64,000 nucleotides of DNA from Armatimonadota bacterium. GTDB lineage: Bacteria > Armatimonadota > Fimbriimonadia > Fimbriimonadales > Fimbriimonadaceae. The notes beneath the pieces are model-generated. The model did no database searches, was not told the DNA's origin, and was given only the letters and a program-made list of their open reading frames with translations. Positions 15,629-16,843 of the stretch are shown in pieces; the stretch's first letter is position 1, and each line of letters begins with the position of its first letter. The stretch covers positions 372,001 to 436,000 of the forward strand of contig DAIDHV010000003.1 of NCBI GenBank assembly GCA_027451905.1. The letters are read 5' to 3'. The position numbers and the translations under genes are program-made.

Positions 15629-15672
15629 AGTATTTAGTTTGACAACGATGCAAAAACTTGAGGTGATCCAAG

Positions 15673-16311
15673 ATTCGACGATTTAACCGCCCACCCCGCC
15701 CTGATCACGGGCCAGAAATCAATGGGCGCCTACTTAAGCATAAAGAGGTCCGGCTAATTGGGTCGGATGGGCATCAGGTTGGTGTTGTAACTAGCCGAGA
15801 GGCTCTGGACATGGCGCGAGCCGAAGGGCTGGATTTAGTTTTAGTATCTGGTACAAGTTCGCCTCCAGTCTGCCGTATCATAGATTACGGCAAGCACAAG
15901 TACGAAGAAGGGAAGTTAGGCAAGGATAAGAAGCCGAAGCAGCAAGAAGTCAAAGGCATTAAAATTAGCCCAAGAATTGCGGAACACGACATCTCCTTCT
16001 TGGTGCGTAACGCAATTAAGTTTCTAGAGGAAGGCAACAAGGTTAAAGTTGTTTGCCGATTTATGAAGCGAGAACTTGTTCACCCCGAACAAGGTAGAAT
16101 AAAACTTGATTTATTTGCCGAGCGTGTGAAAGAGCATGGCACGGTAGAACGAGCCCCCATTTTGGAAGGGAATCAGATGAGTATGATCGTGATTCCCGTC
16201 AAAGCCGGTTCGGGTGGTAAAAAACATGCCAAAGATCAAGACAAACAAGACAGCAGTCAAGCGGTTCAAAATCTCGGGGACAGGGAAGATTCTGCGACGG
16301 AAGTCGCATAA
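15673..16311 (+). CDS. infC: Translation initiation factor IF-3, AUU start
   Basis: 212 residues from an ATT codon at 15673. An in-frame TGA at 15664-15666 leaves no ATG, GTG or TTG before the conserved IF3 N-domain (EINGRLLKHKEVRLIG). AGGTGA stands six bases upstream of ATT. The first in-frame ATG (15811) falls inside the domain and would remove 46 conserved residues. IF3 prevents subunit joining and proofreads the initiation codon; E. coli infC also starts at AUU and IF3 represses its own translation through it, so the same control is likely here. The C-domain contains KGIKISPRIAEHD and KVKVVCRFMKRE. Residues 185-212 form a non-conserved polar tail overlapping rpmI in another frame. The infC-rpmI-rplT order is conserved in bacteria. 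Confidence 0.93.
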   Translation: MRRFNRPPRPDHGPEINGRLLKHKEVRLIGSDGHQVGVVTSREALDMARAEGLDLVLVSGTSSPPVCRIIDYGKHKYEEGKLGKDKKPKQQEVKGIKISPRIAEHDISFLVRNAIKFLEEGNKVKVVCRFMKRELVHPEQGRIKLDLFAERVKEHGTVERAPILEGNQMSMIVIPVKAGSGGKKHAKDQDKQDSSQAVQNLGDREDSATEVA

Positions 16312-16420
16312 TAACCACCAGTTCTTGCATAAGAAAGCGAGCCGAAAGAGACGCTTAGAACAAGAGCCAGAACTCTTCAGAGGCGAGCGCAAGCGCGTCC
16401 GTCGATTGTTAGTTCTGTAA
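16226..16420 (+). CDS. rpmI: Ribosomal protein bL35
   Basis: 64 residues, MPKIKTNKTAVKRFKISGTG at the start, the standard L35 sequence and length. The ATG at 16226 lies inside infC, in the +1 frame, so the genes share 86 bases. GGGTGG about seven bases upstream, within the infC coding sequence, can serve as ribosome site. An in-frame GTG at 16214 is not preferred because L35 starts at MPK. The very basic composition fits rRNA binding in the large subunit. Confidence 0.95.
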   Translation: MPKIKTNKTAVKRFKISGTGKILRRKSHNNHQFLHKKASRKRRLEQEPELFRGERKRVRRLLVL

Positions 16421-16489: not shown

Positions 16490-16843
16490 ATGGCACGCGT
16501 CAAACGCGGTCTAATGCGCCACAAGCGCCACAAAAAAGTAATAGCAAAAGCCTCGGGTTATTGGGGCAGAAAGAAAAACGTCTTCAGCCGTGCTCACGAG
16601 CAGGTCATGAAGTCTGGTCAATATGCATTCCGGGATCGTCGAGCTAAGAAGAGAGATTTTCGAAGGCTTTGGATTGCCCGTATTTCGGCAGGATGCTCAG
16701 AAAACAGCATCAAGTACTCGGAACTGATCCACGGTCTAACAACCCAGGGAATCGAAGTCAACCGAAAGATGCTCAGCGAGCTTGCCATTCATGATCCCGC
16801 AACCTTTGCCAAGGTTGTAGAATCAGCACGAGCCGGACTGTAA
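16490..16843 (+). CDS. rplT: Ribosomal protein bL20
   Basis: 117 residues, normal for L20, beginning MARVKRGLMRHKRHKKVIA and containing GYWGRKKNVF and RDRRAKKRDFRRLWI. It binds 23S rRNA early in large-subunit assembly; in E. coli it also represses the rpmI-rplT mRNA, but whether that holds here is not visible. AGGAGA lies seven bases upstream of the ATG. It is the last gene of the infC operon and is followed by a strong terminator. Confidence 0.96.
   Translation: MARVKRGLMRHKRHKKVIAKASGYWGRKKNVFSRAHEQVMKSGQYAFRDRRAKKRDFRRLWIARISAGCSENSIKYSELIHGLTTQGIEVNRKMLSELAIHDPATFAKVVESARAGL

Follow-up and report, generated by a model that had tools for sequence, protein, structure and literature searches.

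Long overlaps between bacterial genes are usually explained without selection. For long phase-1 overlaps at the ends of genes on the same strand, the models described in PMC2542354 and PMC3887535 favour a 3' elongation of the upstream gene, selection being unnecessary in these accounts. Another point of reference is the rnpA/rpmH overlap of Thermus (Feltens et al. 2003, as reported in PMC9841429), in which a small ribosomal protein gene (for L34) overlaps a housekeeping gene in another frame, whose protein gains residues. According to the same report, rpmH lies completely nested there, and the two genes share a single initiation site. For the gene pair infC and rpmI, coupling through RNA structure has been described in E. 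coli (PMC6728339), as has an L20 operator of the pseudoknot type (PMC6728339, PMC10931766). Among the titles and abstracts listed by literature searches, none concerned an overlap of infC with rpmI.

The infC/rpmI overlap of the Fimbriimonadia (phylum Armatimonadota) presented here is very probably a terminal overprint of ancient date that was fixed in or near the ancestor of this class, with the resulting tail of translation initiation factor IF3 being under purifying selection. It is comparable to the Thermus pair, as that is reported, in that the gene of a small ribosomal protein overlaps a housekeeping gene in another frame. Unlike in Thermus, the shared part is confined to the 3' end of infC and the 5' end of rpmI, and the two genes have separate starts. 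With the modelled overlaps, as far as their descriptions go (PMC2542354, PMC3887535), it shares the common strand, phase 1 and the elongated 3' end of the upstream gene, but it differs from them in that the tail bears the marks of purifying selection and is retained across a class.

The window, i.e. the whole stretch of 64,000 nt that was analysed, carries infC (15673..16311, + strand), which encodes IF3 with 212 codons and a TAA stop (16309-16311). The product matches TIGR00168 (E 5.9e-50; 169.4 bits vs a curated cut-off of 60) and contains the N- and C-terminal domains PF05198 and PF00707. The next gene, rpmI (16226..16420, + strand; ATG at 16226-16228, TAA at 16418-16420), encodes ribosomal protein bL35 with 64 codons and matches PF01632 and TIGR00001 (E 2e-17; 63.2 bits vs a curated cut-off of 51.2, scored from the MPK start). 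As context, the third gene of the operon is rplT for ribosomal protein bL20 (16490..16843, + strand; TIGR01032, E 2.6e-44, above the curated cut-off). The most likely start of infC is ATT 15673, which follows the Shine-Dalgarno sequence GAGGTGA (15660..15666, + strand), rather than ATG 15811. This motif also precedes infC in many class members, and 93 of the 100 overlapping class loci have an ATA, ATT or ATC start of infC together with a Shine-Dalgarno match of at least 5 nt. As far as the type of start codon is concerned, the ATT at 15673 belongs to the non-AUG starts (AUU, AUC or AUA) known from IF3 autoregulation. A list of start codons restricted to ATG, GTG and TTG cuts IF3 to the part from 15811 onward.

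The two genes share 86 nt (16226..16311, + strand) in a terminal same-strand overlap of phase 1, with the frames read from the sequence and the third bases apparently under selection (see below). Relative to infC, the rpmI ATG falls on codon position 2, and each infC-frame codon within the overlap joins position 3 of an L35 codon to positions 1 and 2 of the codon that follows. In total, 28 residues of IF3 are encoded there (HAKDQDKQDSSQAVQNLGDREDSATEVA). An earlier note on this DNA had described an 86-nt overlap in different frames with the rpmI ATG inside infC, and an IF3 tail of 28 residues over the L35 coding sequence; both descriptions hold, with the coordinates and the profile matches in agreement.

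As proposed in the earlier note, we compared the infC-rpmI junction across the Armatimonadota. The search of the class covered 113 genomes, of which 105 had an L35 match, and 102 loci were analysed; those of G043, G074 and G104 were excluded because the match was partial or lay at a contig end or close to it. In 100 of the 102 loci infC and rpmI overlap, always in phase 1 and over a length of 35-176 nt. The family of the window contributes 76 of 77 loci, and the remaining four families of its order 15/15, 0/1, 1/1 and 8/8. The overlap exceeds chance, because the same phase recurs in nearly all class loci and because the frame is more open than L35 and the local codon usage predict. L005 and L037, the two class members that lack the overlap, have stops in the overlap frame within rpmI codons 4-7 (CTT AAG and ACT AGC), at sites where this frame is open in every overlapping relative. 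The IF3 tail of L005 has retained an acidic end despite the missing overlap, which may be chance.

Outside the class, 126 matches were obtained in the phylum; 100 loci were taken and nine had no usable IF3 or L35 start, leaving 91 loci with both genes. Six of these overlap (families f23 and f30). Later searches added two more overlapping loci in family f42 (L212, L215; 152-nt overlap, same phase), and order-level searches around G188 and G229 gave few further overlapping genomes. In family f23 (L080, L122, L138, L204, L205), L35 has a Ser/Arg/Lys-rich N-terminal extension that is overlapped by infC in the same phase, and owing to this extension the L35 starts of the family are uncertain; its IF3 tails end in EDSGEAG. 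Long acidic or Pro/Ala-rich C-terminal tails of IF3 also occur without overlap elsewhere in the phylum (L131, L135, L149, L187, L195 and others). A tree built from IF3, L20 and L35 placed the overlapping families from outside the class apart from it, with weakly supported deep nodes, and the non-overlapping family f8 inside the class with a support of only 0.32. The overlaps elsewhere in the phylum apparently have separate origins.

From other bacteria we took 80 named loci, 63 of them with both genes. Nine overlap, throughout in the same phase, and belong to the Selenomonadaceae and Chloroflexota (L244, L255, L258, L272, L282, L291, L297, L308, L311). They involve the same gene pair and phase as in the Fimbriimonadia, but are shorter (14-44 nt). 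An overlap of infC with rpmI thus is something that originates repeatedly, and among the phylum sample and these named loci fixation in a comparably broad group was not found elsewhere. The alternative phase closes early, with the first stop at 13 nt in 51 class loci, and the use of a single phase is therefore explained by the composition of L35.

The null model recoded L35 at random, with IF3 and L20 of each locus as the sole source of codon usage, which could be done for the 93 of 100 class loci and 83 of 85 loci from other families that have L20 in the locus. The infC frame is open for at least 35 nt in 93 of 93 class genomes vs 45.0 expected; in families without the overlap, the same frame is open over this length in 50 of 83 loci vs 44.2 expected. 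A profile of third bases was derived from the loci with standard L35 layout, 80 of the class and 48 others. In rpmI codons 2-11 of the class, T-ending codons were found 3 times vs 83.9 expected at sites where T makes a stop in the infC frame, and likewise 3 times vs 38.9 expected where it makes none. The corresponding values for families without overlap are 46 vs 59.6 and 30 vs 33.9. Such genome tallies are made over related and thus not independent sequences, which the pair tests given below correct in part.

Particular third bases are favoured as well. At rpmI codon 2, A is found at a frequency of 0.86 (0.17 expected) and gives Lys in the IF3 tail; at codon 6, A reaches 0.71 (0.16 expected), mostly resulting in Lys; and at codon 13, G reaches 0.86 (0.20 expected), giving Val. 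Given an open frame, Lys, Ser and Val are above expectation in the tail and Arg, Leu, Ile, Phe and Cys below, with a tail consensus of approximately KK[DNH]AK[AD][EQ][DN]KQ[DN][GS][GS][EQK][AE]V.

The rival that survives best sees in this pattern the avoidance of harm only: any hydrophilic tail free of degradation or aggregation signals would suffice, so that T would be avoided for the Tyr, Cys, Phe, Ser and Leu codons to which it leads in the frame of infC. Absence of Cys, Phe and Tyr from the tail over codons 1-14, rarity of Leu and Ile relative to the recoded expectation, and the predicted flexibility of the tail are all in line with this proposal. It does not account for the preference of Lys to the equally polar Gln and Glu at codons 2 and 6, where polarity alone fails as an explanation because other bases also give polar residues, nor for the preferred Val at codon 13 and the depletion of Arg. 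Harm avoidance is a serious rival which we nevertheless consider unlikely, weakened as it is by these specific Lys and Val preferences. Regarding purifying selection on the tail itself, almost all genomes have the overlap over codons 2-13; because no overlapping genome stops earlier, the protein-level reading for these codons rests on L005 and L037. The case for them, as far as it can be made from sequence, is built on the recoding test, the families lacking the overlap and the two exceptions.

Further downstream, the varying position of the infC stop allows for a direct comparison. Whether rpmI codons 16-26 are overlapped distinguishes a short group (overlaps ending by 47 nt) from a long group (overlaps of at least 83 nt). 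At the non-stop sites of these codons, T-ending codons amount to 47 of 217 in the short group vs 47.1 expected and to 16 of 414 in the long group vs 71.0 expected. GC3 differs between the groups (0.644 in the short and 0.702 in the long one), which tempers this comparison, although the expectations are based on local codon usage. Among 33 pairs of nearest relatives with a short and a long overlap, T was more frequent in the short member of 21 pairs and in the long member of 4; the other 8 pairs were tied (sign test, p = 0.0009). We also counted third-base differences in 45 disjoint sister pairs. In rpmI codons 15-28, they were found at 75 of 296 overlapped vs 45 of 109 non-overlapped positions, and over the whole of rpmI at 213 of 981 positions in the overlap vs 374 of 1142 past it; the values for the comparison genes are 1367 of 3867 (L20) and 2134 of 5556 (IF3). 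The third-base bias stops where infC stops. This mutation pattern, with less change at sites that are silent for one gene only, as is typical of selection on both frames, indicates that the IF3 tail is under purifying selection.

Because the constraint tracks the infC stop codon, as an RNA signal would not, we regard it as quite improbable that the constraint acts on RNA or on initiation at rpmI (via an L20 operator, an A-rich start region or coupling to infC) instead of the IF3 tail. The E. coli precedents mentioned above, as they are described, speak for such signals, as does a weaker Shine-Dalgarno sequence of rpmI: a match of at least 5 nt was found in 0.39 of 100 class loci vs 0.69 of 85 loci in other families. 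On the other side, a scan of the window with Rfam gave no match, and 45 aligned class sequences yielded no consensus RNA fold (0.0 kcal/mol), a weak result in view of the gappy alignment. The rpmI start is about as accessible as elsewhere, with an opening energy of 8.6 kcal/mol in the class vs 8.8 kcal/mol in other families (50 of 100 and 50 of 85 loci sampled).

The same energies leave a sequestered rpmI start unsupported as a basis of coupling. Termination-reinitiation of the ATGA or TGATG type does not apply either, with infC stopping 35-176 nt inside rpmI. The earlier claim that the overlap couples L35 translation to IF3 is thus not borne out by the stop positions and the openness of the start, and such coupling is a possibility only. 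Since infC starts with AUA, AUU or AUC, it is expected to be much less translated than rpmI, and rpmI to be initiated mostly on its own. The weaker Shine-Dalgarno sequence of rpmI could reflect a reliance on ribosomes arriving from infC or merely a conflict with the IF3 code.

Even less probable is neutral readthrough, according to which infC lost its stop, its frame now runs to a chance stop and the tail is tolerated without a role. Consistent with this are the variable stop positions and the fact that much of the tail sequence is dictated by conserved L35 amino acids alone. At rpmI codon 14 (Phe), where TTT followed by AAR makes a stop in the infC frame, T occurs at the expected frequency (0.33 vs 0.31), so that later stops would be neutral. 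However, early stops are absent from the class, the bias extends to sites unable to make stops, and it ends at the infC stop; in its pure form, neutral readthrough is rejected by the recoding test and the comparison of short and long overlaps. A frameshift from sequencing or assembly at the infC end, the case that could have undone the earlier description, found no support and has practically no chance of being correct, with overlap and phase repeated in 100 of 102 class loci, including the single-contig genome G044 of the window's family.

As to the origin of the overprint, the IF3 match ends a median of 25 nt before the rpmI start in the class, vs 131 nt in other, non-overlapping families. 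Because this distance has shrunk, a deletion of the spacer is part of the origin; it accompanied the loss of the stop, which by itself is insufficient. We propose that most of the infC-rpmI spacer was deleted and the infC stop lost, whereupon the infC reading frame would have extended into rpmI, using the only frame in which the lysine-rich sequence for L35 usually lacks early stops. The overprint would then have become fixed in an ancestor or near-ancestor of the Fimbriimonadia, the tail being translated and now presumably under purifying selection, with rpmI codons 2-13 serving two proteins. Past L35 codon 14, a stop may be neutral in some lineages, which would lead to the observed range of overlap lengths. 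The earlier note had suggested loss of the old infC stop and overprinting of L35. Overprinting of rpmI by infC stands, whereas stop loss alone is too recent and too simple an event, because the overlap is nearly class-wide and the spacer has also shrunk. A recent stop loss is rejected by the 100 of 102 overlapping class loci.

In a fold model of IF3, both domains are predicted with confidence. The tail past the folded core (16207..16308, + strand; residues 179-212 of the model) has pLDDT values of 46-60 over the last four ten-residue blocks, compared to 79-96 in the C-terminal domain, and contains a low-confidence helix (183-209). Two IF3 proteins whose additional ends act as modulators may serve for orientation. 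InfC of Myxococcus xanthus (DsgA) has a C-terminal extension of 66 residues that is described as required for development and not for translation (PMC2129111). By this description it resembles the Fimbriimonadia tail in being a lineage-specific C-terminal addition to a bacterial IF3, and the function of the DsgA tail is selected. Terminal extensions of mitochondrial IF3 are described to reduce the affinity for the large subunit (PMC6321546). Here, as in the Fimbriimonadia, about 30 extra residues are present at an end, and according to that source ribosome binding changes with the core unaltered; the mitochondrial extensions differ in belonging to an organellar factor and in not being overprinted. 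We infer that the tail is probably made in cells and, by analogy, may serve as a flexible and polar modulator of IF3, e.g. of its hold on the ribosome. More tentatively, and with considerable doubt, the first codons of rpmI might be a dual-coding block that yields, as its second product, an IF3 tail of specific sequence with a partner or a regulatory task of its own. In their DNA, L35 and IF3 would then have been locked together from the origin of the class onward, and L005 and L037 would have needed a new, non-overlapping IF3 tail to lose the overlap.

For genome annotation, the locus is a warning that gene callers may meet an infC that starts with AUA, AUU or AUC and ends inside rpmI. With one overlap, many stop positions and about 100 genomes, the effect of the overlap can be read codon by codon between relatives. 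The analysis singles out the IF3 tail as worth testing. For the Fimbriimonadia it shows that two core translation genes have been sharing DNA through the history of the class.
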